Notes under the pieces: model-generated
Seen by the model: the letters and a program-made list of their open reading frames with translations, nothing else
Database searches by the model: none
What the model was told of the DNA's origin: nothing
Source of the DNA: a virus
Strand: one strand, 5' to 3'
Length of the DNA stretch: 59,223 nt
Virus record (IMG/VR): IMGVR_UViG_3300043772_000837
Coordinates: 1-59,223 of that record
Position numbers and translations under genes: made by a program
Shown: positions 1-56,164 of the stretch, one piece after another
How the letters are laid out: each line of letters starts with the position of its first letter
Position numbering within the stretch: position 1 is the first letter of the stretch

Positions 1-3000
1 CATCATTAAATGAATACCAATCAGTATAGTCTCTGTCTCCTTGATACGTATCTTTTTGAAAATGATTAGGAATACCTTTATTTTCAATCTTAATATTATC
101 TAAATCAACATCTTTAATATTTTTAACTAATTGACTAATATGATTACTTGCTTCTTGATAAGTTTTAAATTTTTGATTATCAGGAGTAGTATATTCTACT
201 TCATTACCAGGGAGTATAAGTTTAGAATTACTATAAGCTAATATATCAGATATATCCCCTAATGTCATATTATCAGGTAACTTATTTATTTCTATTTCTT
301 TTTGTTTTAAAAGATCTTTTACAAAAGTTTTTATTTCTTTAAGAAGTCTTTTTAAAAGAGAAATTAAATTACCATCTTTAACTGCATCAAGTTTTCCAGC
401 TGTCATCATACCTAAAAGTTCTACAAGAGCTTCTTCTTGTTGCTCTTCTAAAGTATAATAAATTTTATCTTTATGTTTTAATTCATAAGCAAATAAACTA
501 ATTTCTAACTCATTAGACTCTACATCATTTCCATATTTATCTCTATAACCTGTTTTACTTGCATTATCTGCAATGTAATCTTTACCTTCAAATGTAAATG
601 ATTTACCTCTTTCAAATTTTTTATTATAATCTCTTTTAATTCTATCTAATACTTCTTTACCTTTACCTGTTTCAAGTTCTTTAAGTAAGTTTTGATAAAG
701 TTGACTTTGTTTACTTTTATAAAAAGCATCAGCTTCTTTTTTTGTATTAAAAAAATGAACATCATAATCATCAATTTTATGTTCTTCAATAACCCATTGA
801 TTTAAAGAATTGTCATATTTAGGTTCATAAAAAGTCCCTTTTGTATTATTTTTAATAGCTCTGATAATAGGGTGGCCTAATATTTCATGTATAGGAGTAT
901 CTAATGTAGCATAAGCTAAATTAATAAAAGCAGTATTTTTTACATTTCCATAAGTAACTCCATCTTCAGGATCTGCATCTAATACTTGTCTATCACTTTC
1001 TAATTTACCTTTATATTCTTTAGTTCTATCAGATTCAAATATAAAAGGTATACCTATTCTATCAGACATTCTAGCAGCTAAATCTCTAATAGTTTTTTCA
1101 GATGCTACGTATTCTTCTAATTCTCTATTTTGTGGTAATTGATAGTTTGTATCAGTAGATGATTGAGTAGGATATATAACAAGTTCTCTACCTACATTAG
1201 GTACATCTTCATCAATCCAACCAATTAATGACTCATATCCATTATTCATCATTTCTTGAGAAACTGCATCATTTAAATCTTTTATTTCATCAAAAGTTTT
1301 ACCTTCAACAGCTTTTCTTTTAATCTCCATAAATTTAGATTGACCTTCTTCAGTTGTTGCATCTAAAGTTTTAGATGGGTTATAAGATACATTTACTTCT
1401 TCAACTTTATCTGTTCTTCCTAGTTCTTGAAATGGTTTATCTAATGCATAATATGTTCCGGAACCTCTTTGTGCATAGTCTACTGTAGATGAAAAAGTAC
1501 CTGATGTTCTAAAAGCTTTTACTTCAACTTTAGTAGGTGATTGAGTAGATCTATTAGCAAGTGCAGTTTTTAACTCTTCTCTCCAATTACTATTAGCTAA
1601 ATTAATAGTTGGGATACCTTTTCTTCTAGCCATTTCTACAGCTTGTCCTGTACCACCTTTAGGTCTTAAAGGATTGTTTGTTTCAGGAGCATAGAATATT
1701 ACAAAATCTACTGTACTATCAAGATTTTTACCAAAGATTTGATTAGTATTTCTTGCCATTAACTTTAAAGCTCCTGGGCTTAATTTTTCAGGTGCTGGAT
1801 GTACTTCTTTAACCACATCAGTAGATTTAGTAGTTACATTTGGATTATATGTATCTACTGATGTTTCTCCATTTATTGTTTTTCTAATACCTGAAGGTCC
1901 AAACAATATTTTATTTTGAGCTCCATCTGAAAATGCTTTATCTGCACCTTCTTCATCTAAACCTGTATTTTTATCTTTAAATGTAAAACCAGTTTGTAAT
2001 GTATAACCTAAGCCATCTAAATACTTAGCTACTTCAGTCATTTTATTAAGAACTTCTTGTGGGGTTTGTCTAGATCCAATACCCGCATAAGTCATAGTTG
2101 GGATAGATGACTTATTAGGAAGACTATTTAATACAGGTTTATTACTATTATCAATATCACTTATAGGTTGAATAGGTGTAGGAACTTGTGTAGGTTGAGA
2201 TGCTGTAAGTTTATTTGTATCAACTACATCTAATTCTTTAGTGCCGTTAACTTTTCTAAGTGTTAATACAACTCTATAGTCTTTAGTTTTAACCATTTGA
2301 TCTGGTTTACCTAAACCTTTATAAGCTTTATTAATAGTTAATTCAGGAAAACCTTTAGGCATAGGTAATGCATCTGTTTCTTCATCAAATATAATTTCAT
2401 GAAATACATTTCTATTTTCTTTAGAGAATACTAAAACAGCTCCATTAGTTAAAGTATGTTCTTCAATTTTTTCTATTGAATTAGCTAATGCATCTAATGC
2501 TGCAGATTCTTCTCCAACCATTTTAGCATATTTAGCTAAATTACCTGGAGTAAGTTCACCATAACCTATAACTTCATCACCTTTAAAATTCTTTTGTCTT
2601 TTTAACTCAGGAGCTAATTTACCAGCTACAAGTTTATTAGATATTGTATTTAATGTTAATTCATATCTATTTTTAGCATTTGTACCAAATGAATAATTAC
2701 TAGAATCTTTTAATTGATATGTAATAAATTTCATTGGTCTACCTAAAGACACAGTAATAATAGGAGATGTGTTAAATTCTGTATTATCCTGATGAACAAT
2801 AAGACTTCCTTTGTCATTTTTATCATATACAGAATTATAACTTGCATCATATTGAGATACATCAATACCTTGTTCTAACAGTATTTCTATTATCTCATTA
2901 GGTATATTAGGTAATCTATTTCCATTTATATCAATATTAGTATATACATATAAAGGCATTCCTTTAATTTTCTTTGCTTCAGTTCCAGCAAGAAGTTGAT

Positions 3001-6000
3001 TTACCATTTCTTCTGTTACTTCTTGTCCACCAATTTGTTTTCCTATTTGAACACCTTGTTTTTGTTTATCTGTTAATGCAGAACTTCTAATCCATTGCAT
3101 ACCATAACCCCAAGATACTGAACCATTTGTTTGTTTAAAAGATGTTTCTTGAATAAAATCTTTATTATTTTTTACAATATCAATAGTTTTTTCTGTAGGA
3201 ATTGCATTATTAATAATAATTAAACCTTTTTCATTTTTAATAACTTTTTTATTAACAGAAGTAGATCCTGGTGTTTGATTATTATTAATTATTTCAAACT
3301 CAATAGCTGCAGCACCATCTTTAAATCTGTCTATAACATTTACATCTTCAGATCTCCAACCTTCTTTATTCCAAGTACCTTTAAATCCAGGTGTTCCTTT
3401 AGGATGTATTGCTGTTACTTTAGCTAAAATAGTTTTAGTTGAACCATCAGCAGACTTACCAAAATGCTTAATGATATCTCCCACCTTAACAGCATATTTT
3501 GCCATTTCAGATTCACTTCTTGTAGTCCTAGTTCTTAAACCAGATTCTATCATATCTATAGAATGTGCATTTGCTCCAAGTACTTTAATTACTTCATCAT
3601 TTGCAGTAACTGTAGATCCAAAAGAAGCTACTCCAGATATTTTATTTTGTGGTATATTAGCCACAGGAGAAGTAGATCCTGGTAATTCAAAAGGTGTTAA
3701 CTGATCTGCTTTAGAGTATGGTTTTTCATTTTCTACATCTTTAATTTCAAAGTTACCAAATAGATTACCAGGAGCCATTAGCATATTATAAACATCAGTC
3801 AATGAATCATCTGATAAATAGTTATTTAAAAACTGTTGAGAAAACTTAGTCATACTTTCTGTATAAACTTCAGGGTCTATAGCATTTACAAAACCTAATT
3901 TACTATTACCAACTCCATGTTGATAAAACATCATTAAAGAAAAATCTTTAAATACGTCACTAATTCTTTGATTATCAATAGGATCATCAACTTTTTTAAT
4001 AATAGGGTTAGCTAAATTAATTAAGTTGTTAATGTATATTTCACCTAATACTCCTTTAGCTATTTGTTTATCATTTAACTGAATTAATTTTACAGCTTTT
4101 TTAGTTTTAACAGGAGCTAGTTGAGCTAGTATAGGATATTTATCTTTTAAGTTTGTATTCTCAAACTCTTTAATAATATTTAATACTTTTTCAGTATAAC
4201 TATATTTAGCTGTACCAACAATGTAGCTTCTATTATAAGTATTAGCTAAAGCTTTTTCAGAAATATATGATTCATATGCTTCGTCTGCAGTATTATAAGT
4301 ATTTAATAAATTAAGAAAATCTTTATTTTGTTCTAAACTTTCAATAGGAATACTTGTTCTTAATAATTCTTTTTCAATTGTATATCTATAGTAACTATTT
4401 AAAGTATTAAAAGGATCTTTTGCAAATTTATCACCTGTGTATCCTACATTTTTATTTGCACTTAAATATACTTTTCTTTGGTACTCAGTTCTAACTCTAT
4501 CACTATTAATTATGATACTATCTTTATCTATAATAACATTAGTATTGATATCATTATTAACTAGTACTGGTTTACCATTATAAGATTCCGGAATATTAGT
4601 CAAAGTACCATCAGCATTAACAAATCTAGACATGTAGTTTTGATAAATGTATGCTACAATTGCATTTTGATATTTTTTAGTAAAGAATTCTTGACCATCA
4701 ATACCTGTCCCAAACTTATTTCTAATTTTTCGACTTTCAGTTGGATCATTAAATAATTTAGTAATGTAACTAGAAATTTCATTACTTAATCTTAATGGGA
4801 ACAATGGAGTAACTAAATCTAATATTAGTTTATCTTGATTAAAAGAAGATAAAACAGATTGTTTTGTTAATCTCTCAAGAGAAGCTTTATCAACTTTACT
4901 ATTTTCATATAAATTTTTATATGCTTCTTCTCTTTTAATCACTTGTTGAGCTGTAGTTAATTTAATTTTATCTGGACTAAATACTTTTTCTAATTCACTC
5001 ATACCCTCATATTGTTGTTCTAATTCTAAATAATTAAAAAACAATGTTAAGGCAGCAGGACTACTAGAATCTTTAATATGTTTTTTTAAAAAGTCAATAT
5101 TAATTATCCCTTCTGGTAAAAAAGCATTTGAGAATGCTTGAGTAGTAAATGCATAATTTTTATCTGTAAACAATTCTTTTGATTCAGTTACTTCTTCAAA
5201 TGCATCTTTTGCATTACTATTAAATATTTTTTTTATTGTTGTTGGATCAATATCACCGTTATTAATTTTATTAATTATTTCTTCTGGTGTAAGAGTGTAT
5301 AAAATTGACTCATCTTTTAATTTTACATTATAAGCTTCTTTACTTTTTTTAGCAGAAGCAGCATAAGATTCTAATGTAGCTTTTAATTTTAGTAAGTTAA
5401 TATCAGCTAAATATGAAGTAAAATCTACTCCTTTTACATTAATCATATTTTGAATTATAGCATTTGCAGATGCTGTAGTTTTACTACCTTTAGATTCACC
5501 ATATACAATACTATAGTAAGGACTTTTTCTTAACTTTTGATCTTTAATGTATTCAACTATTAATGGTTGAGTTAAAAAGTAAAAAATTTCTTCTTCACTA
5601 ACACCTGCTTGAAGCATGTAGTTTAACGTATTAATAGCTTCTGGTACAAGTTTTAAATCAAATGGGAAAGAGTTCTTAGCTCTATCTAAAATACCATTTA
5701 ATGCATGTGAATTAATATCAGTAATTCTAGTACCTAATTGAGTTTTTTCTCCAGATAATGATATTACTTCTTTACCAGCTTCATTAATTGCAGTATTATG
5801 TTTTAGTCTCATCACCATAGGCAACTCAATTAAACTTTTAATTACTCTATTAACTGAAAAGTTAGTATATGAAGTAGTATAAGTAGCCGGCATATTTACA
5901 CCAACAGTTTTATATAATACATGACTTTTAGTAAAGTTGGCTTGTACACCTAATGAAGGCTCTAAAGATAAGTTAGCATCATGTAAATATAACTGATGGC

Positions 6001-9000
6001 TAATTTCATTTTGTCTTGTAGGACTAACTACATCTTTTTGTTTATCTTTAGGACCCACAGATTTTTTTGGACTACCATGAGTAGCACTTTCATATCTATT
6101 ATATCCTGTGCCTAATTTTTGTAAATCTTCTGCATACTTTTCAACTAAGTATGTTTGATTTGGTTTAGTTAAATATCCAAAGTTATCAGGAAGAGTTAAA
6201 AGATCAATTGATTTTTTAAGATATAAGTTTTGTAAATATTTTTTTTGAAGTTCAATTAATTGACCTGATTTTAATCTGTCTTTACCTAGTTTACCATCTT
6301 TTTCTAATGCAATAGTTTCTTTTAATAAAGCATCATAATTATCAATTCCTTTATTAATATAGTTACCATCTTTATCAACGTTTGGCATTGACATAAATAA
6401 CTTATCTCCATCATAATCTGACCCAGCTTTAGCTACAATTTCAGTAGGCAATATAATAGCATTACCAAAACTTTCATTAAAGAAATGCCATACTTCAGCT
6501 CCTTCAATTGTATTTGTAGCATCATTAGGAATACGTGGTCCAAACAATGAAATAGCATCACGGTTTTGTTCTAACCATTTATCATCTTTAATTAATTCAT
6601 TTAATCTGTCAATAGTACCAATTACATTACCATCTAAGTCTTTTGCTTTCAATAAATTTTTATACTCCCCTTGTAAAGCAATAGCAACTTTCATTAAGTT
6701 GGTTTTACCTGTAGTTTTATTAATGTTATAAAAAGGAAGAGTATTAGTTCCTAATAATCTTTCAATATCAGCAGGATTTGTTAATGTTTTATATTGATCA
6801 TCCCAGATACCATTTGTAAATGTAGACGGCATTTGAGTTAATGGTTCCCCATTAGTCTGTTGTTTAATTAATGTAGTTTGGATAATACTTAATAATAACT
6901 TTTCAATAGTTTCTGCTTGAGGATGTAAAGATAGATCTATAGATAATTTACCTTCTTTAGTAGTGTTAAGTAATTTTAATAACTGTTCTGGGATATCTCT
7001 ATTACCTAACTCTTCTCTTAATACCTGTACAAAAGTAGTAATGTCACCTTCATAATTTCCATCCTCATTAAGAGAGTATCCAATTTTATTTAATAATTCA
7101 TCTTTTAAAACAATTGAATAATCCCTAACTACATTTTTATAATCATTAACTAACGGTGCATTATCTGAATTAGTTAATTTACCATCATTATATAAGTTAT
7201 CTAATATGATTACTCTTGTTTGAGTAGCAATAGGTAATGTTTTTTTGTAGTATTCATTGATAACTGTTACTTCTTTTAAGTTAGCCATGAATATTGGGTT
7301 AACAGTAAAAGTAAAATCTTCATTAATACTGTTTTCATTACTGTTAGCAAATAAGTTATCTACATTCCCTCCATTAGTTAATGTAACTGCTTTTGAACCA
7401 GATTTAAATGTTACATATTGAACATTATCTTTTAACATTTTTTTATGTAGTTTTCCTAATTCACTAGTTTCAGGATACACACCTGGAATTAAAGGAGCTA
7501 CAGAAAACTTATGCATAGCCATAGCTGGTAACAAATCATTTTTTAATGAACCATAATAATGTAATTTGTAAATTGGAAAAAATTCTTTAGCATCTTGTGT
7601 TGAAATTGTTTCACCAGCTACAACTTTTTGATACAATGCTTCTTGAGCTACTGACCAACCTCTACCTGTTTTATGTAATGTTCTATATGCATCAAGAGTC
7701 ATATAAGCAATACCATCAGATTCATCCATTTTATCTTTTCTAAAAGGTTTTGAATCTAATTCTACTAATCTATCTGCTTCTTCTTCAGAATAATTGTTTA
7801 CTTCTATATAATTTTTTTTCCATGCAGCTTGATATTCTGCTAAATAAATAGATTCACGTTGAGCATCTTTAATAACTGCAGTATTAAGTACATCTGAATA
7901 TTTAAATGAATCATACTTAGTATTATCTTCAGACTCTCTAGTTAATTTGGCACCATATGTTTCAGTAGTTTTATTAAATACATCATTAATAAAATCTCTT
8001 GAAGATTGATCATATAGAAATCCTATACCATCAGATTGTGCTCCTGGAATACGTTTAGGTTGTTCTTCTTTACCATGATTCCATTGTGCTCTATCTCCAA
8101 ACATTAAAGAGGAGACCTCAAATCTATGAATCCAGTCATTATACATAAATGCTTTAAGAACTGTCTGAATATTTTTAGGATCTTCTTGAGCTTCTTCAAC
8201 TTGTTTTCTAGTTAGTAGTTTTTCTTTAGGTACTCCTGCTTTTACTAGTATTGACTTAGATATATAAGGTAATTTATCAAAGTAAAGTGTTTTATATTTT
8301 TCTGTAACAGTATCAAAGTAATTAGTAATATCTGTTTGAATATCTTTTAATAACTTAGAATTAGTTTTTAAATATTGTACTAAAGGTATATTAACTTCAT
8401 TACTATTTGCATATTGATCAGCAAGAGCATATAATTGATTTTGTGTATCTTTTGATAGGATATCATCAAAGTCATTAAATACTTCACCTGCATATTTTTC
8501 AACACCGTTTACATCATTTACTTTGTTATTAAATCCTGTAAAGTTTAAATACTCTTCACGTCTGTTACCTTTGAATTTAACTATTCTGTCAAATTCAGAT
8601 TGGATATAACCAAGGAAATGATTATTAATAGCATAGATTTCTCCATTACCATTATTAGCAAATTGGATTACATCTACATATAAGTCTGTATCTGCTCCTT
8701 TGGTAGCATAACTAATAGGATCTGTTTTACCAACAATACCTCCTACTACTTTAAGACCATATGCATTTTTCTTTTCAGACATTCTATTAAACTCAGAGAC
8801 ACCTCCTCCTAACATAGAATGTAATTCTTGTAATCCTTTTCCTATTGGATCTAAGTCAGCTGTAACAGTACCTTCAGTATTTGAGTTACCATTTTCATCT
8901 TCTGTAATTTGACTAGTACCATTTACATTCATTAACTGAAGAGACTTACCTGGTTTTTTTGCACCAGTATGCATATCAAATATTTCATTTAATATTCTTA

Positions 9001-12000
9001 AGTTCTTAGTAAATGTATTAGTATTAGGATTTAAATAAGCCATGTGGCTATATTCATTCTTAGTCCATAAATCTCTTATGTTAGATACAGAGTTAACAGC
9101 ATCTACAAATCCTGTCATAAAACTGTAATTAACATCTTCATAAGCTGTATTACCATCTGCAGTAATTACACCTGTTGTTGCTGAGTCATATCCGTATTTA
9201 GCTTGTAATTCAGCTAATCTAGTGATTTGAGTATTCTCATTAATACCTTTAGGAAAGGTAGTTAAAATATTTATAGGAACTGCTGTTCTTAAAACTTCAA
9301 TAGGGTTAGCTTTAAATTTATTAAGAAATGTTTTTTGTGCAGATGACACAGATGCAGCAGTAGCCGGATTGTTTAAATCTTGTTCTATTTGAGCAAAGTC
9401 TTTAACTATATTAAACATAAACGGAATACCATAGTATTCTAATTTAGAATCAAAATCAGATTTGATATTATCATTTACAGTTAGATTAATACCTATAGCT
9501 TTAGCAAAGTCAAATGCTTTACTTATAACTAATTCATCTTTTTTACTAAAGTCAGTAAGTATATTTTGTAAATTAAGTTCAGATTCATTATCTGGAGTTT
9601 TCTTAATATATCTACTAGGTGATGCACTAACAAATTCTGTTTGCCATCTACCTGTAATATTACTAATTGCTAAAGATGCTTCTGCTAATTTAAAATCAAT
9701 TGTACCTGATTCTTCATCTGGTACAGCTAATACAATTTTATAAGTAACTTTTGGTTTTCCAAAATCTTGTAAAAATTGTCTACTAATATCAAATTCATAT
9801 GAATTTTTAGTATTAGGATCTGGATATTTAAAATCAATTAACTGTTGAATTTCAGGAAACTTTGAAGCTTCAGCTTTTAATAAATTATAAGCCAGTTCTC
9901 TATCTCTTACTCCACCAATAGTTTTAGCTACAATATTAAATACTTTAATAAAATCAACTCTTTCAGGAAATCCTAATCTGTTTTTAACAACATTATTACC
10001 ATCTGTTTTAATAAGACTTTTAAGTAACATAGTAGTTTCTTTACTCATCGTTTGAAGTAAAGACTGTTTATGTTTTTTTACATCATTAAATGTTTCTATA
10101 TCTCTTCCTGAATTTTCTAAATCATTTTCACTAATAGCTTCATCATTGTTTTCATCAATAACATCTAACTCATATTTAGTTTTAGATATTTCAAAGTCAC
10201 TATTCTCCATATGATACTTAACCAATCCAGAGTTTTCATCTCCGTAATTGTCAAGCATAGTTTGTAGAATTCTAATATTGTCTTGAATAAATTCTTGATC
10301 TTCTGTTAATAATACTGGATTTTCTAATTTATTATCAATTACTTTAGTATAAGCTTTTGAGTTACCATCAATATAATTTTTTAATTGTTCTTCAGCTTGT
10401 GCCATTGAAGTTACAACCATAATATCAGCAGGAACTTTACCATTTAAAATGGTTTTATGTTTGTAAAAGTCTGATACAATTTTAATCCCGTGGTATTTTT
10501 CTCCTTTAACTCTATCACCATTAGCTTTTAATGAAGGTTCTAATATTGTAAAATCATCAATTTGAGATTTTAAAAATATAAATTTGTTCTTACCTTCTGA
10601 GTTTACAAATACACCAGCTGCATTATCTTTAATTTCTTGTAGTGTTGTTAATGTACTAAAGTTTACAATACCTTCTACTTTAGCTAATTTATCTTTTTCT
10701 ATTTTTAATTTAGATTCTAATTCTTTTTTAGCTTGAACATATAATGCAGCTCTTCTTGATGGTTCTAAAAATACAGCAATATTAGCTCCTTTAGCTCCTG
10801 ACTTACCTGCAACTCTAGCTTTTTCATTAATAGTATTTAAAATTTGACTAAAAATACCATCTATAGAAGATACAGCAAGTGTTGAATCTTGTTTACTTAA
10901 TACAACATTTCTTTTATTATTGACACTAGGTACTCCTCTATCTAATGAGTAGAACATAGAGTTATCAATTAAAGGTGTATATTTATTAATATCTCCAATA
11001 TAAAGTTTGTCAAATAATTCTTTAGCCATTGGTGAATTAAGGCTATTAATAAGAACATCTTTGTTATTGAATTTTTTTAATCCTTTACCAAATAATTGTT
11101 TTAAGAACTCCACCATTCTTCTAAACAAAGTATTTCTTTTAGGAGAAGATGCTTTAGCTTTACCGGTTTTAACATAGTTTCTAAAGTCTTCTGCTAACAT
11201 TTCCTCTAGTTCCAAATAAGATTTAGTAGCATAAGGAGTTGCACCTTTAGGTGTGGTATAATTTCTTAACTCTTCATACAAATCAATTTTATCTTGTTTA
11301 CTTAAAAACAATTGAGAGAATCCGTGCCATGCTTCATGGTAAATAGTTAAGTTTTGAAATACAGATCCTTTTGCTGTATTAGCAGTAATCTTACCAAGTG
11401 TCCCATCAGGGTTTGCTATTTTACTAGCATTAGTAATAAAAGAAGCATATACATCAGAGTTAACTAAGTTAGCTACATGTTCAAGACTAATAACTTTTCT
11501 TAAAGGAGCTAACTCAGGACTATTCCACCATGTTCTAGCTGCAATAACTTTTTCTCTAGCTATCTTTTCATCTTTAGAACCTCTTCTGAATAAACCTTTA
11601 AAGATATCATCATCTATATCATTATCAGTAAACATCCCATTAGTAGTAGCATTATTTATCGGATCAGGAGCACCCGGTACTTCTACCTGATCTTTGATTT
11701 CTGCTTGAGTTTGAGAAGGACTTGGTACTTCTTTAATAGCATCAATCTCATCTTCAATCATTTTAACTTGTTCTACACTTAAAGGATTTAATGGTAAAAG
11801 ACTTTGAATTTCATTCTTAATACTATTAGCAAATTCTTTTGTATAGTTTTTTTCTTTAATAGCTGCTTTAAAGTATGCAACAAGTAGAAAATTATCTGTT
11901 GGATTAATATTAGTATTACCTGGATAGTTTTTAACTTTATTTAAAAATTCTTCAGATTTTGAATTAGCAATAATATCACGTGCTTCTACTTTAACAGGAT

Positions 12001-13924
12001 TTCTATTGTCCTCTTCTTCTTTTCTTTTAAGAATTTCTTCAAAGCTTAAGTTTTCTCCTTCTGTATTATTTAAATTTTTATCAGCTTTTTGTAAGTCATC
12101 AATAAAACTTCCTGGAAATGCAAACTCTATTGATCTATTATAAATACCTGGATCTGCATTAATCAAATTAATTTCTGCAGGAAAAGAAGATATAAATTCT
12201 AAATAGTCACCTGAGTATGGTTCTTTAGTATCTCTATTATATCTAATAAATTCTTTTTGATTTTTAATTAAACTACTGTTGATATTAATTAATGTAGGTC
12301 CATTTTTAAAACCTTCTCTTAAATATTGTAATATATCTTTTTCAAGATCTTGACGTTCTTGTTCAGTATATCCATTATTTTTAAGTTTTTCTAAATCAAT
12401 AGTACGGTTAATTACTTTACCAAATGTATAAGTTCCTGAAGAATTTTTAGTAGATGTTTTTTTATATAATTCAATTGTATTGTCAATAGAATTAAATTGA
12501 ATTCTACGTGTTGTATCTTTTGTTGTATCAATAAATTGATTAAGATATATTTGTTTTAATGATGCAGGAGGGTTTGGATCCATTAGCATAGCGGCAATTT
12601 CAGACATTAATTCCTCATTCATTCTAGGATTATTAATCTTAAATTCACCACCATTAATACGTACAGTTGTTTGACCTTTTTTAAAACTAGCTGTATCAGA
12701 TGTTATAACATTAATACTAGTTAATATTGATGCTATATCAAGTCCTGGAAATTTTGATAATTCATTTAAATAAATGATAGTACTTGATAAATTACTTGGT
12801 ACACCAGATGATACTCCAGTAATAGGGAGTAATATACTTGTTTTATCTCCTGACTTAATTTGTTCTTGTATGCCATAAAGAGCTTTAAATTCTTCTTGTT
12901 GTTGTTGTTTTATTGCTTTTACATATGCATCATAATCAATATCTGAATTTTGATCATATGTTTGTTGAGCAATTTGTTCTGGAGTTGCAACACTACTTTC
13001 AGTTGTATATACATTAGTAACAGTATATTCTTTACCGTCTTTTCTTACAGGTCTTAAAAATTGATATACAATATTACCATTAGCTTCATCAGTAATGTTA
13101 CCGTCTTTATCAAAGTATAAGAAATTACCATTATCATCAGTAATTACTAATAAACTTTGTGCATTTATAGGTATAACATCTCCTAGTTTACTACCTTGTG
13201 CAAGAATAGCAGAACTTCTTTTTAAACTTTCTTCATCATTTTTTCTTAATTTATCAGAATATTCTTTTCTAAAACCAACAACATCTTGTACTTTTAATCT
13301 TAATGTTTTACCTTGATATTTAAGTTCTTCACCTGGTAGTGTAGTATTTTGTAAGTCATTTATTTTATTAGTAACATTTATTGTTGTTTCTAATTCAGGA
13401 TCAATAGTCTCAATAATTACTTCATCATGCTGACCTTTTTTCTTAGGGTCAACTTTTACAAATTGTTGTAAAGTTCCAGAAGCTGCAGAAGCTGCTTTAA
13501 ATCTAGTTGGTAATAATATTACAGGTTGATCACTAGTTGATTCAACAGGTATTTTATTTTCTGCATCTTCTTTTTCCTTAATTTTTCTACGTAACTCTTC
13601 ATCAGAATCAGTAGAATATGTTTGAATGATCTCAGCAATACCAGTTTCTGATTTAAATTTTCTACTTAATTTATTTAATGCAGTTGTATCAATATCAATA
13701 TTTTCAAACCTTTTAATAGCAGCTAAACTAAGTAACCTTGGTACAGACTGTAAATATTTAGCTGCTACTTCTGGTGAAGTTTTATCAGCTATTTCATCAT
13801 ATAATTCTTTTAAAAAAGCTTCATGATCAAATGTTTCATTACTTGAAAAATTATTTAATTTAATTACAATAAGTTTATATAATAAACTTACAATTTCTGG
13901 ATCATTAATAGGACAAGTTATCAT
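1..13924 (-). CDS. Giant polyvalent virion RNA polymerase protein (3' end outside window)
   Basis: An open frame of at least 4641 codons starts at ATG 13924 and is still open at the left edge. The start overlaps the upstream stop as TAATG. Domains seen: a zincin with HEAWH (863-867) and candidate third ligands Glu907, Glu908 and Glu912; a beta-like RNA polymerase barrel (PIYKLHYYG, Lys2120; MHKFS, Lys2139; SGSK, Lys2178); a beta-prime-like barrel (RIPND near 2469, then SDYDGDKLF with Asp2503/2505/2507); a conserved polymerase C-terminal part near 2680-2790 (LQAGVS, FLTQPLI). After these come ASCH-like, AlkB-like, SLOG and ART-like domains and an HEILGH metal site. Family knowledge: crAss-like phages package such a single-chain polymerase and inject it to transcribe early genes. 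The polymerase call is strong. Roles for the other domains are inferred, and no domain is recognised before about residue 780. Confidence 0.9.
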   Translation of the reverse strand, partial: MITCPINDPEIVSLLYKLIVIKLNNFSSNETFDHEAFLKELYDEIADKTSPEVAAKYLQSVPRLLSLAAIKRFENIDIDTTALNKLSRKFKSETGIAEIIQTYSTDSDEELRRKIKEKEDAENKIPVESTSDQPVILLPTRFKAASAASGTLQQFVKVDPKKKGQHDEVIIETIDPELETTINVTNKINDLQNTTLPGEELKYQGKTLRLKVQDVVGFRKEYSDKLRKNDEESLKRSSAILAQGSKLGDVIPINAQSLLVITDDNGNFLYFDKDGNITDEANGNIVYQFLRPVRKDGKEYTVTNVYTTESSVATPEQIAQQTYDQNSDIDYDAYVKAIKQQQQEEFKALYGIQEQIKSGDKTSILLPITGVSSGVPSNLSSTIIYLNELSKFPGLDIASILTSINVITSDTASFKKGQTTVRINGGEFKINNPRMNEELMSEIAAMLMDPNPPASLKQIYLNQFIDTTKDTTRRIQFNSIDNTIELYKKTSTKNSSGTYTFGKVINRTIDLEKLKNNGYTEQERQDLEKDILQYLREGFKNGPTLININSSLIKNQKEFIRYNRDTKEPYSGDYLEFISSFPAEINLINADPGIYNRSIEFAFPGSFIDDLQKADKNLNNTEGENLSFEEILKRKEEEDNRNPVKVEARDIIANSKSEEFLNKVKNYPGNTNINPTDNFLLVAYFKAAIKEKNYTKEFANSIKNEIQSLLPLNPLSVEQVKMIEDEIDAIKEVPSPSQTQAEIKDQVEVPGAPDPINNATTNGMFTDNDIDDDIFKGLFRRGSKDEKIAREKVIAARTWWNSPELAPLRKVISLEHVANLVNSDVYASFITNASKIANPDGTLGKITANTAKGSVFQNLTIYHEAWHGFSQLFLSKQDKIDLYEELRNYTTPKGATPYATKSYLELEEMLAEDFRNYVKTGKAKASSPKRNTLFRRMVEFLKQLFGKGLKKFNNKDVLINSLNSPMAKELFDKLYIGDINKYTPLIDNSMFYSLDRGVPSVNNKRNVVLSKQDSTLAVSSIDGIFSQILNTINEKARVAGKSGAKGANIAVFLEPSRRAALYVQAKKELESKLKIEKDKLAKVEGIVNFSTLTTLQEIKDNAAGVFVNSEGKNKFIFLKSQIDDFTILEPSLKANGDRVKGEKYHGIKIVSDFYKHKTILNGKVPADIMVVTSMAQAEEQLKNYIDGNSKAYTKVIDNKLENPVLLTEDQEFIQDNIRILQTMLDNYGDENSGLVKYHMENSDFEISKTKYELDVIDENNDEAISENDLENSGRDIETFNDVKKHKQSLLQTMSKETTMLLKSLIKTDGNNVVKNRLGFPERVDFIKVFNIVAKTIGGVRDRELAYNLLKAEASKFPEIQQLIDFKYPDPNTKNSYEFDISRQFLQDFGKPKVTYKIVLAVPDEESGTIDFKLAEASLAISNITGRWQTEFVSASPSRYIKKTPDNESELNLQNILTDFSKKDELVISKAFDFAKAIGINLTVNDNIKSDFDSKLEYYGIPFMFNIVKDFAQIEQDLNNPATAASVSSAQKTFLNKFKANPIEVLRTAVPINILTTFPKGINENTQITRLAELQAKYGYDSATTGVITADGNTAYEDVNYSFMTGFVDAVNSVSNIRDLWTKNEYSHMAYLNPNTNTFTKNLRILNEIFDMHTGAKKPGKSLQLMNVNGTSQITEDENGNSNTEGTVTADLDPIGKGLQELHSMLGGGVSEFNRMSEKKNAYGLKVVGGIVGKTDPISYATKGADTDLYVDVIQFANNGNGEIYAINNHFLGYIQSEFDRIVKFKGNRREEYLNFTGFNNKVNDVNGVEKYAGEVFNDFDDILSKDTQNQLYALADQYANSNEVNIPLVQYLKTNSKLLKDIQTDITNYFDTVTEKYKTLYFDKLPYISKSILVKAGVPKEKLLTRKQVEEAQEDPKNIQTVLKAFMYNDWIHRFEVSSLMFGDRAQWNHGKEEQPKRIPGAQSDGIGFLYDQSSRDFINDVFNKTTETYGAKLTRESEDNTKYDSFKYSDVLNTAVIKDAQRESIYLAEYQAAWKKNYIEVNNYSEEEADRLVELDSKPFRKDKMDESDGIAYMTLDAYRTLHKTGRGWSVAQEALYQKVVAGETISTQDAKEFFPIYKLHYYGSLKNDLLPAMAMHKFSVAPLIPGVYPETSELGKLHKKMLKDNVQYVTFKSGSKAVTLTNGGNVDNLFANSNENSINEDFTFTVNPIFMANLKEVTVINEYYKKTLPIATQTRVIILDNLYNDGKLTNSDNAPLVNDYKNVVRDYSIVLKDELLNKIGYSLNEDGNYEGDITTFVQVLREELGNRDIPEQLLKLLNTTKEGKLSIDLSLHPQAETIEKLLLSIIQTTLIKQQTNGEPLTQMPSTFTNGIWDDQYKTLTNPADIERLLGTNTLPFYNINKTTGKTNLMKVAIALQGEYKNLLKAKDLDGNVIGTIDRLNELIKDDKWLEQNRDAISLFGPRIPNDATNTIEGAEVWHFFNESFGNAIILPTEIVAKAGSDYDGDKLFMSMPNVDKDGNYINKGIDNYDALLKETIALEKDGKLGKDRLKSGQLIELQKKYLQNLYLKKSIDLLTLPDNFGYLTKPNQTYLVEKYAEDLQKLGTGYNRYESATHGSPKKSVGPKDKQKDVVSPTRQNEISHQLYLHDANLSLEPSLGVQANFTKSHVLYKTVGVNMPATYTTSYTNFSVNRVIKSLIELPMVMRLKHNTAINEAGKEVISLSGEKTQLGTRITDINSHALNGILDRAKNSFPFDLKLVPEAINTLNYMLQAGVSEEEIFYFLTQPLIVEYIKDQKLRKSPYYSIVYGESKGSKTTASANAIIQNMINVKGVDFTSYLADINLLKLKATLESYAASAKKSKEAYNVKLKDESILYTLTPEEIINKINNGDIDPTTIKKIFNSNAKDAFEEVTESKELFTDKNYAFTTQAFSNAFLPEGIINIDFLKKHIKDSSSPAALTLFFNYLELEQQYEGMSELEKVFSPDKIKLTTAQQVIKREEAYKNLYENSKVDKASLERLTKQSVLSSFNQDKLILDLVTPLFPLRLSNEISSYITKLFNDPTESRKIRNKFGTGIDGQEFFTKKYQNAIVAYIYQNYMSRFVNADGTLTNIPESYNGKPVLVNNDINTNVIIDKDSIIINSDRVRTEYQRKVYLSANKNVGYTGDKFAKDPFNTLNSYYRYTIEKELLRTSIPIESLEQNKDFLNLLNTYNTADEAYESYISEKALANTYNRSYIVGTAKYSYTEKVLNIIKEFENTNLKDKYPILAQLAPVKTKKAVKLIQLNDKQIAKGVLGEIYINNLINLANPIIKKVDDPIDNQRISDVFKDFSLMMFYQHGVGNSKLGFVNAIDPEVYTESMTKFSQQFLNNYLSDDSLTDVYNMLMAPGNLFGNFEIKDVENEKPYSKADQLTPFELPGSTSPVANIPQNKISGVASFGSTVTANDEVIKVLGANAHSIDMIESGLRTRTTRSESEMAKYAVKVGDIIKHFGKSADGSTKTILAKVTAIHPKGTPGFKGTWNKEGWRSEDVNVIDRFKDGAAAIEFEIINNNQTPGSTSVNKKVIKNEKGLIIINNAIPTEKTIDIVKNNKDFIQETSFKQTNGSVSWGYGMQWIRSSALTDKQKQGVQIGKQIGGQEVTEEMVNQLLAGTEAKKIKGMPLYVYTNIDINGNRLPNIPNEIIEILLEQGIDVSQYDASYNSVYDKNDKGSLIVHQDNTEFNTSPIITVSLGRPMKFITYQLKDSSNYSFGTNAKNRYELTLNTISNKLVAGKLAPELKRQKNFKGDEVIGYGELTPGNLAKYAKMVGEESAALDALANSIEKIEEHTLTNGAVLVFSKENRNVFHEIIFDEETDALPMPKGFPELTINKAYKGLGKPDQMVKTKDYRVVLTLRKVNGTKELDVVDTNKLTASQPTQVPTPIQPISDIDNSNKPVLNSLPNKSSIPTMTYAGIGSRQTPQEVLNKMTEVAKYLDGLGYTLQTGFTFKDKNTGLDEEGADKAFSDGAQNKILFGPSGIRKTINGETSVDTYNPNVTTKSTDVVKEVHPAPEKLSPGALKLMARNTNQIFGKNLDSTVDFVIFYAPETNNPLRPKGGTGQAVEMARRKGIPTINLANSNWREELKTALANRSTQSPTKVEVKAFRTSGTFSSTVDYAQRGSGTYYALDKPFQELGRTDKVEEVNVSYNPSKTLDATTEEGQSKFMEIKRKAVEGKTFDEIKDLNDAVSQEMMNNGYESLIGWIDEDVPNVGRELVIYPTQSSTDTNYQLPQNRELEEYVASEKTIRDLAARMSDRIGIPFIFESDRTKEYKGKLESDRQVLDADPEDGVTYGNVKNTAFINLAYATLDTPIHEILGHPIIRAIKNNTKGTFYEPKYDNSLNQWVIEEHKIDDYDVHFFNTKKEADAFYKSKQSQLYQNLLKELETGKGKEVLDRIKRDYNKKFERGKSFTFEGKDYIADNASKTGYRDKYGNDVESNELEISLFAYELKHKDKIYYTLEEQQEEALVELLGMMTAGKLDAVKDGNLISLLKRLLKEIKTFVKDLLKQKEIEINKLPDNMTLGDISDILAYSNSKLILPGNEVEYTTPDNQKFKTYQEASNHISQLVKNIKDVDLDNIKIENKGIPNHFQKDTYQGDRDYTDWYSFND
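420..960 (-). other. C-terminal HExxxH metal-site domain of the giant protein
   Basis: LDTPIHEILGHPIIRAI gives His4346, Glu4347 and His4351, with three residues between Glu and the second His (HExxxH) instead of the usual two. A Glu-rich helix, EEQQEEALVELLG, follows near residue 4498 and could give a third ligand. The HELLGH signature of dipeptidyl peptidase III (M49) has the same spacing, but the rest does not look like that family. A zincin-like PolyVal domain is the cautious call. Confidence 0.55.
1160..1545 (-). other. Probable ADP-ribosyltransferase-like (ART-PolyVal type) domain of the giant protein
   Basis: Residues about 4130-4255 show FRTSGTFSS, then GSGTYYALDKPFQELG, then KVEEVNVSYNPSKTL, and finally NNGYESLIGW and GRELVIYP. 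The order Arg start, 'G-Y-Y/F-A' strand, 'V-Y-NP' strand and 'GY(D/E)-l-I' followed by 'e-VIY' is that of ART-like domains in phage polyvalent proteins. It is divergent, and the catalytic Glu cannot be assigned with certainty. Confidence 0.5.
1590..2100 (-). other. SLOG nucleotide-binding domain of the giant protein
   Basis: Residues about 3944-4112 start with YAGIGSRQTPQEV (Gly3948, Gly3950), continue with EEGADKAFSDGA, and end with VIFYAPE and KGGTGQAVEMARRKGIPTI (Gly4090). These are the hallmark blocks of SLOG Rossmann-like domains, which bind nucleotides or nucleotide-derived ligands. Free-standing phage proteins with the same 'YAGIGSR-TP' start are common. Here the domain is fused between AlkB-like and ART-like parts. 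Confidence 0.8.
2240..3115 (-). other. AlkB-like 2-oxoglutarate/Fe(II) dioxygenase domain of the giant protein
   Basis: Residues about 3603-3895 match the AlkB pattern in order: WGYGMQW at the front; SLIVHQDNTEF with the HxD pair (His3711, Asp3713); PIITVSLGRPMKF, the 'siSlG' strand; GAVLVFSKENRNVFHEI with the second iron ligand His3842; and YRVVLTLR with two Arg six residues apart (about 3884 and 3890), the spacing AlkB uses to bind 2-oxoglutarate. An insert of roughly 75 residues separates the SLG strand from the second His. AlkB enzymes remove alkyl groups from nucleic acid bases. Confidence 0.8.
3290..3590 (-). other. ASCH/PUA-like domain of the giant protein
   Basis: Residues about 3445-3545 contain MIESGLRTRTTRS, then KVGDIIKHFG, then TWNKEGW. 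The order 'small residue-Gly-x-Lys/Arg-Thr-x-Thr-Arg', a GDII beta turn and an aromatic, acidic end fits ASCH-type PUA-like folds, which bind RNA or modified bases. The fit is by eye, so the fold is likely but not proven. Confidence 0.55.
6350..7720 (-). other. RNA polymerase core (two double-psi barrels) within the giant protein
   Basis: In the giant frame, residues about 2070-2525 contain both halves of a single-chain DNA-dependent RNA polymerase. The beta-like half carries Lys2120, Lys2139 and Lys2178 in a pattern typical of crAss-like enzymes (PIYKLHYYG, MHKFSVAPL, FKSGSK). The beta-prime-like half carries GSDYDGDKLF, whose three Asp residues (2503, 2505, 2507) would hold the catalytic magnesium. 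Beta-like before beta-prime-like is the order known from crAss-like phage and YonO-type polymerases. All motifs lie in the frame set by ATG 13924. Confidence 0.9.
11160..11420 (-). other. N-terminal zincin metallopeptidase domain of the giant protein
   Basis: Residues about 835-920 read as a gluzincin-like site: TIYHEAWHGFSQLF gives the HExxH pair (His863, Glu864, His867), and LELEEMLAEDF about 40 residues later supplies a Glu third ligand (907, 908 or 912). Zincin domains beside the RNA polymerase are known in crAss-like giant proteins. It could release the polymerase from the precursor or cut a host protein. Neither role is shown by sequence. Confidence 0.8.
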
Positions 13925-16900
13925 TATTGACAATTTATAATTTTATTAAATAGACTATTTTTAATGTCAGATTCATTAGCTGTTAAAGCTTCTTCAAATG
14001 CTTTATTTTCTAATGTGTCACTATCAATAAATTCATTAACAGTGTTTTGTGATTTTTTAAGAGTTTCATCTTCTTCAGGAGTAAGATTGTATTCTCCTGT
14101 AGGTGATGTTGGATTATAAACTTCATTTTCAAGTTTATAGTTTTCTTCAAGTTCTTTCATAGTCATTTTAATCTTTGTTTTATCTGAACCTATAATAGTC
14201 ACATTACCATTTTTAAATCTTCTTGTTATTTGATATGAATTACCATCTGCATCATATACCATAGTTCCTACAGTATATGGATCATTTTGATTATCATTAA
14301 CAAAATTAGACTTCTTCTTTTTTGTAGGTGTTTCTTCTTCTTCATTAGTTTCAGGAGTCTCAACTACATTTTCAGTAGCCGTTGCCACTGCTTTTAATGG
14401 TATTACAGAGTTAATTCTATCTTGAACTGTCTCTATATACAAAGGTATAAATTTATTTGAATTTACTCCTTTATCTAATATAGTAAATTTAGGATTACCA
14501 AAAGCATCTAGTACAAAATTTCCGGTTTCTGGATCTATTTCATATTGAATATTATTAAACAAAGTAGGGTTGCTTGGTTTACCTGCTGTTAAAACTTGTT
14601 CAGTATCTTTATTAGATTCTCTTTCAATTGGGAAAATATGTATAGTTGGAGTTACTCCAAACATGTTTTCATATAATCTACTATATGCTGCTTGTTGTAA
14701 TGTAAAAGATTCTCTTTTAGCAAATACTGGTGTATTTTCTTTTGTTTGAGTAGAATTAAATATGTTCCAAGTTCTTTGTTCACCTGTTTTAATATCTACA
14801 ATTCTAGTAGTACCATCTTTATCTACAATAAGTAAATCTATTTCTCCGGCTATTCTATCTTTAGCCTTATTTGGTAAAATAATATCAGAATCCCATACTA
14901 CTAAATTGTCACTAGCAATAAATATATCACCGTTATCAGCTTGATTTTTTAATTCTGTAAGATATCCATCAGGTCCAAACAAAGAGTCATAAGCTTCTCT
15001 TGTAATAGCTCCTTCAACAAATTTTGGTTGGATACCTTTACTAAATAAATCTTTTACAGCTTTGTCTATATAGTTACCTGCAGTTCTACTATCTGCATAA
15101 GTATTTTCAGAAATCAATTCTAATACATCTTCAACAAGATTTTTTTCTTCTTTAGGTGTGACATAATCAGTTTCTGCAACTAATCCTAAAAATCTATCAC
15201 CTTGCCATACTTCAATTGCATTATTAAAAACTTTACCATCTTCTGTTTGATAAACAGGAATTAGTCTTAATTCAACTTCTTTACCATAATCTTCTGGTGT
15301 GACAGTACGGTCATGATTATAAAAAATTACTTTTTTATTTTTATCCCAATAGTCTAATGACATTGATACTCCAGTACTACCCTCTACTTGATTAATAACA
15401 CCTTTTACTTTTAAGTTAGAATCTAGCATTTTAACTATATCATCATGATTAGTTTTATTTTGACCTGGTGTTACTGGTTCTTCTGTGACTGTTTTATCAT
15501 TATTAGTAAATAATTTACCATTTTTAAAATAGCCGAAATTAAATTTAGTTGGGATTTTACCTTCACTCATTTCTGGATAATTATCTAACATGTCAGATTC
15601 AATTTTATCCAAATCAACTTTATTATTTATTGTTGTTTCTCCAAACTCAGATTTAGGCCAAGCTGTAATAAATACTCCAAATTGATTTCTATGTGGTGAA
15701 TTTCCATCTAATAAATTATTCATTAAAGTTAAAAGACCTTTTTTACTAGTTAAACCTATTGTTCCTTGTAAACCTGTACCTAAACTATATTCAAATTGAC
15801 TATTAAATATATCTTGAGCAACTTGATCTTGAGTGACATGAGCACCGTAAATCATATCATCAGGTAAAGCTTCAATTTGTTTTTTTAATTCAGCTTTTTT
15901 AGCTTCTATGTCAGATTGATCATTACTAGGTTGACTCATTTCAAGTGCAATAATCTCTTCAGCAATTTTTTCTTTAGCTGTTATATATTGTTGTTCTTTA
16001 ACTGTTTCATCTTTAAGTTTTGCATCAGCTATTTTAGTATTTAATTCTGCAATTTGTTTTTGTAAATTTTTAATTTGTACATCAACAGGTTCAACAACCA
16101 TTGATTTTAATCTTGATCTTAATTTTTCAAAAAATATACCATCACTACCAGCAATATTTCTTTTAATTAATTCATCAATAAATTTATCAACTGAATCATT
16201 AGTTAAACCTTCAACTTCTATAGTTTCAGCATAAGCATCTCTTACATCTTTTTCAGATGTATAATTATAACCTTCTTTTTTAAGTTTATCTACAACATTA
16301 CTTACACGTCTATGAAACTTACCATTGATTCTGTAAGCTATAGCACCTTTCTTTAAACCAGTAACAGTGTCATCTTGTTCTAATACTACACCGGCCTCAA
16401 CAGATTTTTTATTTAATGCCTGTAATCTTTTAACATTTTCAATAGCTGCTTTTTGTTCTGGTGTATATTTTTTTTGTGCTCTACCTTTTATTACTCCTCT
16501 TAAATTAGTTAACTCAGTTTCTAGTTCAATTATATTTTTAGAAAAATTTGTAGTAGTATTATTTTTTAAACTCTCTATTTCATTTTCAATTTTAATAATT
16601 AAAGCTTTAAGATCATCAATACTTGCTTTACTAGTATCAGTTTTAACTCCTTTAAATTCTAAAATATAATCTGCTTTATCTTCAACTGGAGAATTTTTAA
16701 CATTGTAAGCTTTAATAATAGCTTGAATATCAGGAGTTTTAATAAACTCAGTTAATATTTCATTTTCTTCTTCTTCAAATATATTTAATCTATCATTTAT
16801 ATCAGGATATGTTTTTTCAAGATAAGCATTAAACAGAGGTAATATTTCTTTTTGATAAAAATTAGCATGCTCTTTTTTTATTTGATCTCCTGTTACATTT

Positions 16901-50410: not shown

Positions 50411-52027
50411 TTAGAATGATCCACCTGTAACTGGGTTTCTCATAACAATTTTTAATACTTTAGTTGGATCTTTAACCCAAATAGCAGGCATTGTTTGAGA
50501 CATCATTACACGGTATCCGTTGAATTGTCCAGAAGATTGGAACCCTTGAGTTCTACCCATGTAATCCATTGTACCATTTTGATACCACCATTTCAATTGA
50601 TTATCCCAAGACAATTTCAACATGTAGATGTTGTCATTTGTGTTATCTGTGATATCAAAGATAATGAATGAGTAAGAAGATAATGGGAAACCATCAATGA
50701 TTGGGTTCTCAATATCATTTGTATGAACATTGTCAAATGCTGGATTCAATACAAATTTCACGTTAGCCAAGAATGGAATAACATAAGAAGTGTAAGCAAA
50801 TCCAAAGTTCAAGTCCATACCTTTACCAGTGATTGCACCGATATCAGCAGCTTGAATCAAAAGACCAGAAGATACTGCTTCTCTTTTGATAGCTTCATTT
50901 ACCATTCTCATTCCACCCATACCAGTTTGTACAACCAAAGATCTTTTTGGATCTGGACCTTGGAACTCAACTTTACCATTGAAGAAGTTGTAGATTTCTC
51001 CACGGAACAAATCCAATGTAAAGTTATTTTTATTGTATACTCTTTTGAAAGAGTTATCCAATTGTTTCCAAAGACCCACTGACAATCTTACATCATCTGG
51101 ACCATCTTGACGTACTCTACCTCCGTGTCCCCACATAAGGTAAGTCTCAATATCCGTTGCAATTTTTGTTAAGTGAGCAGCTTCCATGTTAGTCAAGAAA
51201 GTACGTGACAAGTCTCCATTGTCAAATGCTTTTTTAACTTTGTCTTTACCCATTACCTTAACCATATCATCCAAAGATGCAATTGCTGGATCAATGTTTT
51301 TGTCAAATGTTCTCCAGATTTCAGTTACAGGAACTGTACCATCTGCATTCATTCCACCTTTGATCATCAAATCTGCACGAGAAGAGATAGAGTAATGTAC
51401 GTGAGCTTCAGCACCTCCTACATAGTTATAGAATTCACGGAAACCTGTGTTAGTAATGATGTCAGAGAATCTCTCACCATACTCACCTCTAGCTGAACCT
51501 TTACGGAAAACTTTTGTACCATTAGACAAGTACTTGTTATCCAAGTATTTGTAATTGTCATTGTTTACCAACTGTACAGTATAGATAAATCCATCTCCAA
51601 TAGGAAGAATGTCTTCAGCTGTAATGTACATCTCAACACCGTTGTATTTGTCATAAGTGATAATATCACCATGTCCAAACTCACGTTTGTTCAACTTGAT
51701 ACGGAAAGTAGTACCTTCAATACCTTTGAAATCATTTTCAGATTCAATGTCCTCTACAATGTAAGGTAGATCTACTGAAACTGGAGTTTGCCATCTATAC
51801 TCTCCACGAGCATTGTCAACCATAATGACATTCTTTCCACCGAAAGAAGACATTTGGTAAAGAGGCATTTCAACCTTTTGTGCCATAGCCCAAAGATCAA
51901 CCGGACCTAAATCCATAGGTTCAGCATCCTTAAGCATGTTTACTAAGTGGTAAGAATCTACGTGAGATGAAGCTGCATAAGCAGTATCACGTAGGAATAT
52001 ACCATTGTTTAAAACTGGAGTTGCCAT
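50411..52027 (-). CDS. Major capsid protein (538 aa)
   Basis: Position after the portal and the scaffold candidate, length, high-expression look (more C-ending codons than neighbours, own terminator) and sequence agree. Recognisable blocks: FREFYNYVGGAEAHVHYSIS, VGLWKQLDNSFKRVYN, LDLFRGEIYNFFNGKVEF and VQTGMGGMRMVNEAIKREAV, the last being the 'TG--G' strand-helix typical of crAss-like and related HK97-fold capsid proteins. No N-terminal delta-domain or cleavage site is evident, and no maturation protease gene is seen nearby. Forms the capsid shell. Confidence 0.85.
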   Translation of the reverse strand: MATPVLNNGIFLRDTAYAASSHVDSYHLVNMLKDAEPMDLGPVDLWAMAQKVEMPLYQMSSFGGKNVIMVDNARGEYRWQTPVSVDLPYIVEDIESENDFKGIEGTTFRIKLNKREFGHGDIITYDKYNGVEMYITAEDILPIGDGFIYTVQLVNNDNYKYLDNKYLSNGTKVFRKGSARGEYGERFSDIITNTGFREFYNYVGGAEAHVHYSISSRADLMIKGGMNADGTVPVTEIWRTFDKNIDPAIASLDDMVKVMGKDKVKKAFDNGDLSRTFLTNMEAAHLTKIATDIETYLMWGHGGRVRQDGPDDVRLSVGLWKQLDNSFKRVYNKNNFTLDLFRGEIYNFFNGKVEFQGPDPKRSLVVQTGMGGMRMVNEAIKREAVSSGLLIQAADIGAITGKGMDLNFGFAYTSYVIPFLANVKFVLNPAFDNVHTNDIENPIIDGFPLSSYSFIIFDITDNTNDNIYMLKLSWDNQLKWWYQNGTMDYMGRTQGFQSSGQFNGYRVMMSQTMPAIWVKDPTKVLKIVMRNPVTGGSF

Positions 52028-52058
52028 TTTTACTTGTTTATTTATTAGTGTTTATTAT

Positions 52059-53334: not shown

Positions 53335-53409
53335 GTTTATAATGTAATATAGTAAATAAATTTTAAAAATTTAAAACTGTTTTATAATTTTTTCTACTAT
53401 ATGGCTATA

Positions 53410-56157: not shown

Positions 56158-56164
56158 AATTTTT

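Follow-up and report, generated by a model that had tools for sequence, protein, structure and literature searches.

The closest described relatives of the gene analysed here are the virion RNA polymerases of crAss-like phages (structure 6vr4 of the Protein Data Bank, PDB; phage phiCrAss001), with which it has in common a homologous catalytic region carrying the D.D.D motif and the same genomic block. The gene is a giant open reading frame (ORF) on the minus strand of IMG/VR virus record IMGVR_UViG_3300043772_000837, whose 59,223 bases were analysed whole and are called the window below. The virus in the window is a crAssphage-related virus of bacteria. Giant ORFs are also found in other crAss-like phages, such as crAss002 gp33 (4,245 amino acids, aa) and a 4,946-aa protein of cr118_1, but in the window's protein the polymerase is followed by four modules that resemble enzymes and by one with a HExxxH motif. 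When these two gut relatives were scanned, helicase-type matches (AAA_30 and UvrD_C_2) were found near the C-terminus of the cr118_1 protein (locus L032:15000-16600) and no Pfam match in crAss002 gp33. Our reading, to which we give a probability of about 0.6, is that the window's gene encodes a polyvalent virion RNA polymerase whose C-terminus is a rack of exchangeable entry enzymes, and that the phage is an environmental member of the crAss-like group.

Statements taken from published sources refer to parts of their texts. Virions of phiCrAss001 carry polymerase-associated proteins as cargo (PMC10172136). In polyvalent proteins (Iyer et al. 2017, PMC5512222) many unrelated enzyme domains are combined in one phage protein encoded near virion genes, and the window's protein likewise has several biochemically unrelated domains in one chain, encoded near virion genes. 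Polyvalent proteins include zincin domains, those of the HEXXXH set too, and ADP-ribosyltransferase (ART) domains, and release of parts by the zincins has been proposed (PMC5512222). The window's polymerase differs in belonging to the crAss family and not to the N4 type, and the words AlkB, dioxygenase, 2OG, ASCH, SLOG and crAss are absent from the main text of that paper. A first-pass annotation of the window knew of crAss-like virion polymerases fused to a zincin but of no example with the full tail behind the polymerase. This stands in part: virion polymerases of the N4 type that also carry zincin and ART domains were already described among injected, multidomain polyvalent proteins (PMC5512222), whereas AlkB, ASCH and SLOG do not appear in that main text. 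Phage SLOG, NADAR and ART domains have been predicted to act early against host immunity based on nicotinamide adenine dinucleotide (NAD), and some are encoded among virion genes and likely packaged (PMC9503650); the DNA-virus versions typically stand alone, whereas in the window they form part of a virion polymerase chain. Polymorphic toxin systems are alike in the recombinational replacement of C-terminal domains as cassettes (PMC3482391). The window's protein is instead phage cargo, and the likeness is one of working, with no homology claimed. No description of a C-terminal exchange zone in crAss polymerases was found in the literature, which is a weak test of its absence in print.

The giant gene and its conserved chassis

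The giant ORF (window 1..13924; all features below are on the minus strand) runs without a stop from an ATG at 13922-13924 to base 2, giving the first 4,641 of 5,256 codons, and is open at the window edge. The sister record IMGVR_UViG_3300044634_002329 (G001, 119,985 bases) spans the window and the remainder of the gene, which is complete at 77766-93536 of G001 (5,256 codons and a stop, with a 10-base overlap with the next ORF); 615 residues fall outside the window (G001 91690-93536). Compared over 17,024 bases around the gene, the two records are identical; at the far window end there were two differences in 7,534 bases compared, both within the last 8 bases of the window. The first-pass annotation had proposed a single unbroken minus-strand frame of at least 4,641 codons and had asked whether stops were hidden between its domains. 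The frame proved to be coding throughout. From composition, 8.9% of codons would be expected to be stops and the giant frame has none; moreover, codon-position G+C follows a coding pattern in all eleven bins (at most 500 codons each), which together exclude a chance open frame. An assembly or sequencing artefact that hid stops or joined genes would be easier to entertain in metagenome assemblies, and both records are IMG/VR assemblies, so their agreement is not an independent long-read check of the frame. However, the sister record completes the gene, the two records agree, the coding pattern is uniform and 56 relatives have ORFs of 3.2-4.7 thousand aa; such an artefact was rejected as extremely improbable.

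From the N- to the C-terminus the motifs and domains are ordered HEAWH (residue 863), DYDGD (2503), ASCH-like, AlkB, SLOG, ART-like and HEILGH (4346), as the first-pass annotation had them. Relatives were taken as the best 80 of 448 loci from a polymerase-profile search, G001 included, a choice biased towards near relatives, and were mapped with module profiles built from the window's protein. In each of the 56 ORFs complete at both ends (from the 79 loci other than G001) the order N region, Z1, polymerase, X3 is constant, and these parts are referred to as the chassis. The N region (aa 1-780; 11585..13924) is present in 72 of the 79 polymerase ORFs and has no Pfam match, and the N-terminal 1,700 aa gave no match when searched against 50,697 phage records. 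The zincin-like region Z1 (aa 790-1040; 10805..11557) contains HEAWH at aa 863 (11324-11338); the pattern HE[AS][WFY]H is kept in 79 of 81 polymerase ORFs having the region, the other two being truncated.

The RNA polymerase core (aa 1900-2860; 5345..8227) holds the D.D.D catalytic motif as DYDGD at aa 2503 (6404-6418). Profile comparison establishes its homology to the crAss-type enzyme: a profile of eight relatives (A3) matches PDB 6vr4, a DNA-dependent RNA polymerase which we take to be from phage phi14:2, with an E-value of 7.2e-28 over chain residues 1326-1677. That match needed the profile, as a phmmer search of the polymerase piece against PDB returned nothing. By tblastn, the polymerase matched 13 crAss-like phage records. 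X3 (aa 2930-3390; 3755..5137) is the last conserved part of the chassis and is found in 76 of the 79 polymerase ORFs, the other three being cut by a contig end. The earlier proposal is supported in that a polymerase of the crAss type is coupled to a zincin motif and followed by domains related to repair, nucleotides and effectors.

Exchange of modules between related phages

Past X3, after about residue 3,390, the protein varies between phages, and this stretch is called the zone. The 56 other ORFs complete at both ends measure 3,196-4,678 aa (stop-to-stop lengths, duplicates kept), the window's protein (5,256 aa) being the longest of the 57. Its zone is also the longest at 1,744 aa, against 103-1,169 aa in the others (72 ORFs with a complete 3′ end).

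Zones differ even where the chassis hardly does. All seven distinct, non-identical pairs whose chassis (polymerase to X3) is at least 95% identical share at most 69% of zone length, and six of them keep the flank after the zone. These seven were collapsed from 11 pairs including duplicates; 12 pairs with 99.9-100% chassis identity, in which the zones are identical, were left out. Nine hand-picked pairs were compared as DNA. Coverage was 0.11-0.66 in the zone and 0.98-1.0 over the 3 kb after it in eight pairs (0.19 in L013/L042); before the zone it was 0.97-1.0 in six, and 0.32-0.76 in three in which the partner contig is truncated. L071 and L073, for example, are 99% identical across the 11 kb that lead to the zone and 98% across the 4.1 kb beyond it, with 19% of the zone in common.

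Moreover, the closest phage differs from module to module (among the relatives compared, leaving out BLAST hits covering less than 40% of a module). The closest AlkB copy is in L064 (84% identity, against 52% for the polymerase), the closest SLOG copy in L067 (83%, polymerase 49%) and the closest ASCH-like copies in L066 (89%, polymerase 51%) and L035 (87%, polymerase 36%), while the closest ART copy is in L124 (73%). For the metallopeptidase-like module Z2 and the adjoining part P1 the closest copies are in L016, L018 and L019 (60%; polymerase 27% in L018), with 52-60% across L012-L024, where the polymerase is 23-36% identical where measured. Blocks of similar DNA start and stop with the modules: aa 3558-3912 are 83% identical over 1,062 bases, aa 3924-4132 84% over 626 and aa 3419-3553 86% over 404, whereas chassis blocks reach 63-69% when longer than 1 kb and up to 79% when short (high-scoring segment pairs under 100 bases were dropped). 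The ART module also changes site, being found in the zone in G001 and L124, within the N region in L125 and L128, and, in L129, in the ORF that precedes the one with the polymerase block. In L044 and L046 the zone blocks stand in opposite order.

Inspection of five hand-picked pairs placed the left border of the zone at PTQP or PTEP in three, and at a different K/P/S/T-rich stretch in the other two. Per 100 aa, linker tripeptides (from a list picked after the sequences were viewed) number 0.85 in the 61 zones and 0.12 in the chassis. Five stretches of the window's protein exceed the P/Q/S/T threshold, two at module borders and three within the chassis, so linker richness alone is no border marker.

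Could the modules simply be old and better conserved than the chassis, with no exchange? The identity of ART, of the main ASCH type and of Z2+P1 does exceed that of the polymerase where both were measured. However, zones are replaced beside nearly identical flanks, each module has a different closest phage, ART sits at different sites and the L044/L046 blocks are reversed. Other copies (SLOG 50-53%, a second ASCH type 29-30%, AlkB 24-28%) are no closer than the chassis, which contradicts better conservation. Slow evolution as the sole cause was rejected, and we give it next to no credence. The same distant copies also tell against a simple picture of exchange, as do some pairs with 70-95% chassis identity whose zones resemble each other from end to end: there are old subtypes of the modules too, and some of the shared modules did not arrive recently. 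Taken together, these comparisons show exchange of modules between related phages. The tail is one combination from a zone exchanged among them and not a fixed kit, a point missed by the first-pass annotation, whose reading of the protein is otherwise sound in kind.

Modules of the zone and neighbouring genes

The ASCH-like module (aa 3445-3556; 3257..3592) lies in DNA blocks 77-86% identical to sister phages and keeps the pattern G.RT.TTR...EGW...IEF across 14 copies, one of which matches Pfam ASCH (PF04266) at 2.2e-4. A PDB profile search with the ASCH alignment gave chance-like matches only and no ASCH chain, and the assignment is the weakest among the ASCH, AlkB, SLOG and ART modules. The AlkB-like Fe(II)/2-oxoglutarate (2OG) dioxygenase module (aa 3585-3900; 2225..3172) matches PF13532 with 36.3 bits (cut-off 31.2). 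The iron ligands of its HxD...H motif and the C-terminal arginines (H112, D114, H243, R285, R291) are invariant in 8/8 aligned sequences. A phmmer search of the AlkB piece against PDB gave four short ankyrin-type matches and no AlkB chain. A P/Q/S/T-rich linker (aa 3907-3934; 2123..2206) separates this module from the SLOG/DprA-like module (aa 3935-4128; 1541..2122), which matches PHROG 768 at 3.7e-45. The AlkB-SLOG piece matches 1,343 phage records; among the 40 matches listed all 40 fall within the SLOG part, with names including DprA-like and hypothetical protein.

The ART-like module (aa 4133-4252; 1169..1528) was modelled from a six-sequence alignment with a predicted local distance difference test score (pLDDT) of 90.1, and the model supports an ART fold. 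Its VIA list (50 rows) holds 9k3a_B (Z 6.4), MbcT, NatT, an Albireti toxin, tankyrase, ParT, 6kyf, VPA0770, cholix and PARPs (Z 3.2), with every Z below 7 and PARP entries many and repeated. The rows represent about eight kinds of protein with an ART fold, plus one cyanophage ejectosome chain. Several of the names we take to be ARTs, the ejectosome chain is presumably one as well, and 6kyf we take to be the anti-CRISPR AcrIF11. Foldseek alone found nothing for the model at E≤0.001 (best E 0.1), and a PDB profile search with the ART alignment gave chance-like matches only. In the alignment (A7) R7, Y26, Y27 and E115 are invariant and by position would fit an ART active site.

The HExxxH metallopeptidase-like module Z2 (aa 4262-4640; 5..1141) contains HEILGH at aa 4346 (872-889). 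The HExxxH motif and a downstream Glu (H86, E87, H91, E238) are invariant in 21/21 aligned sequences, and both lie on helices in a model of 999 residues covering Z2, P1, P2 and a C-terminal anchor (CTA), the last three of which follow Z2 outside the window. That model is mediocre (pLDDT 65.2; predicted template modelling score 0.41). Against the peptidase MATCAP (7z5g) Z2 gives a weak likeness (Z 3.7, 115 residues aligned, root-mean-square deviation 4.8). A PDB profile search with the Z2 alignment gave chance-like matches only, and Pfam returned no family with a convincing E-value for 20 members of the alignment (A6). DPP III, presumably of family M49 with a HELLGH motif, was considered for Z2 and seen in no row, which excludes nothing. 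The C-terminal 1,131 aa had no match in 50,697 phage records.

In 20 relatives Z2, P1 and P2 were located: in 14 they form the ORF directly after the polymerase/X3/Z1 ORF, in two they lie further off and in three a contig edge hides the arrangement. The remaining one, L028:1-8622, has the HExxxH module ahead of the polymerase in one ORF, the reverse of the order in the window. In the window's phage the module is fused behind the others, and among the ORFs mapped only the window's protein has all five modules in one ORF; the protein is so long because a full zone is combined with a captured neighbour gene. P1 (about aa 4721-4901) resembles the Chromobacterium violaceum effector 8htd (Z 7.2, 147 aligned, root-mean-square deviation 4.5), although such a Z is common by chance; we take 8htd to be an ADP-ribosyltransferase and do not claim this identity for P1. 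In phages whose polymerases are distant, the DNA of P1 (G001 aa 4721-4901) reaches 88% identity over 644 bases. The CTA (128 aa) terminates 26 polymerase ORFs, including the window's, and occurs in 14 other ORFs that lack a polymerase. A second copy, mostly of half length, opens the zone in 17 polymerase ORFs (L044, L046 and 15 more), and this direct protein repeat flanking the zone might mark or promote exchange.

Near-identical zones were collapsed from 72 to 61, the window's own included, before Pfam matches were counted (E≤0.001). AlkB-like domains were found in 18 (some below the cut-off), NADAR in seven, ART-PolyVal and Phage_30_3 in four each, DUF7831 and cpYpsA in three each and DprA in two, with single helicase-type, RNase H and zeta-toxin matches. 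Helicase-type matches were also seen in the L090 zone. The zones L060:13223-15862 and L076:5868-8591 pair NADAR with ART-PolyVal (L076 also has AlkB), possibly uniting both directions of ADP-ribose chemistry, addition and removal, in one protein. L005:3-11410 holds a mosaic cargo block: its polymerase ORF contains a HEVSH motif and is accompanied by a NinG-like ORF (PF05766, 7.2e-22), a HEILGH ORF and a protein with HEIIH that matches ART-PolyVal weakly, below the threshold. These contents bear on whether the zone is ballast, that is, functionless captured genes decaying at a permissive C-terminus. The spread of zone lengths (103-1,744 aa) and the zones that match no Pfam family (six of 20 tabled singly) would suit this explanation, but the AlkB iron and 2OG ligands and the HExxxH motif are invariant and a few enzyme families keep recurring across the 61 zones, and we regard it as distinctly improbable.

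The giant gene lies downstream of a block of head genes (50411..58366), on the same strand. This block includes the large terminase TerL (56165-58366; PHROG 6681 at 3.7e-55), whose 124 phage matches are largely from crAss-like and Flavobacterium phages, the portal (53410-56157) and the major head protein (50411-52027). Further virion proteins follow, then ORFs of 723, 648, 741, 950 and 2,231 aa and the giant gene. The 2,231-aa ORF (13924..20619) overlaps the giant gene by one base, and its aa 1797-2073 match proteins named RNA-polymerase subunit in crAss-like phages. The 1,088-aa ORF after the giant gene also matches proteins of crAss-like phages annotated in this way. Leptolyngbya phage Lbo-JY46 (L131/L132, PP438436.1), from a cyanobacterial source, is syntenic with the structural block of the window (portal 31%, major head protein 29% identity). 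In it a 2,748-aa ORF occupies the polymerase position; it has two HExxH motifs and no D.D.D[KR] motif, and its C-terminus resembles the 1,088-aa ORF of the window's phage. Rfam and tRNA scans of the window found nothing. A polymerase search in bacterial and archaeal genomes found one locus, in a Bacteroidales metagenome-assembled genome, at 24% identity, too distant for naming a host.

Proposed role at entry

We propose that the chassis (N region, HEAWH zincin, polymerase, X3) would be packaged, injected and used to transcribe early genes, as family knowledge and gene position suggest. The C-terminal enzymes would enter the host with the polymerase and work before phage gene expression, and the modules are swapped as DNA blocks, frequently joined by P/Q/S/T-rich linkers. 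The window's rack comprises ASCH-, AlkB-, SLOG- and ART-like modules and the HExxxH polyvalent module, the last being the next gene in most relatives. AlkB and NADAR enzymes act on modified bases, as do ASCH-type enzymes, and SLOG, NADAR and ART act on NAD-derived chemistry. AlkB may strip alkyl damage or modifications from bases, SLOG (and, in sister phages, NADAR) may destroy defence signals or adducts of the NAD/ADP-ribose type, ART may modify a host protein and the zincins may free parts by proteolysis. The enzyme tail would probably arm the virus against bacterial defences at entry. Packaging, injection, processing and all substrates are here inferred. Delivery of the modules with the genome is plausible, because phiCrAss001 virions contained polymerase-associated proteins (PMC10172136).

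Several results weigh against this reading. The window's own ASCH-like copy (searched on G001) has no Pfam ASCH match and Pfam ART-PolyVal (PF18760) gave no match on G001 at E≤10. For Z2 no Foldseek match was obtained at E≤0.001, and the MATCAP Pfam model PF08014 matched none of 10 records. Z1 is a putative zincin by its HEAWH motif. Six of the 20 sister zones tabled singly had no Pfam match and three had sub-cut-off matches only, so an enzyme rack is not demonstrated for every zone. The domain names in the first-pass annotation, for which it had proposed profile searches, fared unequally. AlkB and SLOG were matched by profiles, whereas ASCH was reached through another copy and the ART-like assignment stands on a confident model with an ART fold. 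The HEAWH zincin stands as a conserved motif, and the HEILGH motif is of the form HExxxH, invariant in the sequences aligned, and not the usual HExxH.

The zone could also be removed before packaging or act late. In such a scheme the zincins would cut the polyprotein during assembly, the polymerase alone would be packaged and the modules would act in the infected cell, for example by shielding phage DNA or RNA. The HEAWH and HExxxH motifs within the giant protein would suit it, as would the finding that 14 of 20 relatives already have the HExxxH module apart, in the next ORF. A cut before packaging is described for DdrB of phage P1 (PMC5512222). However, the N4 virion polymerase is packaged uncut (PMC5512222), and the presence of the CTA after the zone in 26 polymerase ORFs suggests a role at the chain end with the same polymerase. 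A late-acting fusion seems unlikely to us, although it keeps some weight.

Under the reading of a polyvalent virion polymerase, the virion polymerase of the crAss type is linked to injected polyvalent proteins, both already known. We would put at even odds the broader proposal that phages of this lineage use the virion polymerase generally as a vehicle for delivery, with a C-terminal zone dedicated to exchange, in which linker-joined AlkB, ASCH, NADAR, SLOG and ART cassettes for reversing base modifications and for NAD/ADP-ribose chemistry are swapped and give each phage its own counter-defence set before any phage RNA is made. AlkB enzymes require oxygen, which would be in keeping with hosts that live elsewhere than in the anoxic gut. 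The plain label RNA polymerase conceals much of the enzyme content of such proteins, and the contents of the zone, readable over hundreds of genomes (448 relatives), amount to a list of possible entry needs. If the modules are delivered, counter-defence enzymes could be drawn from the zone, which would also be a natural place to attach further sequence, tolerating some 100-1,700 extra residues.

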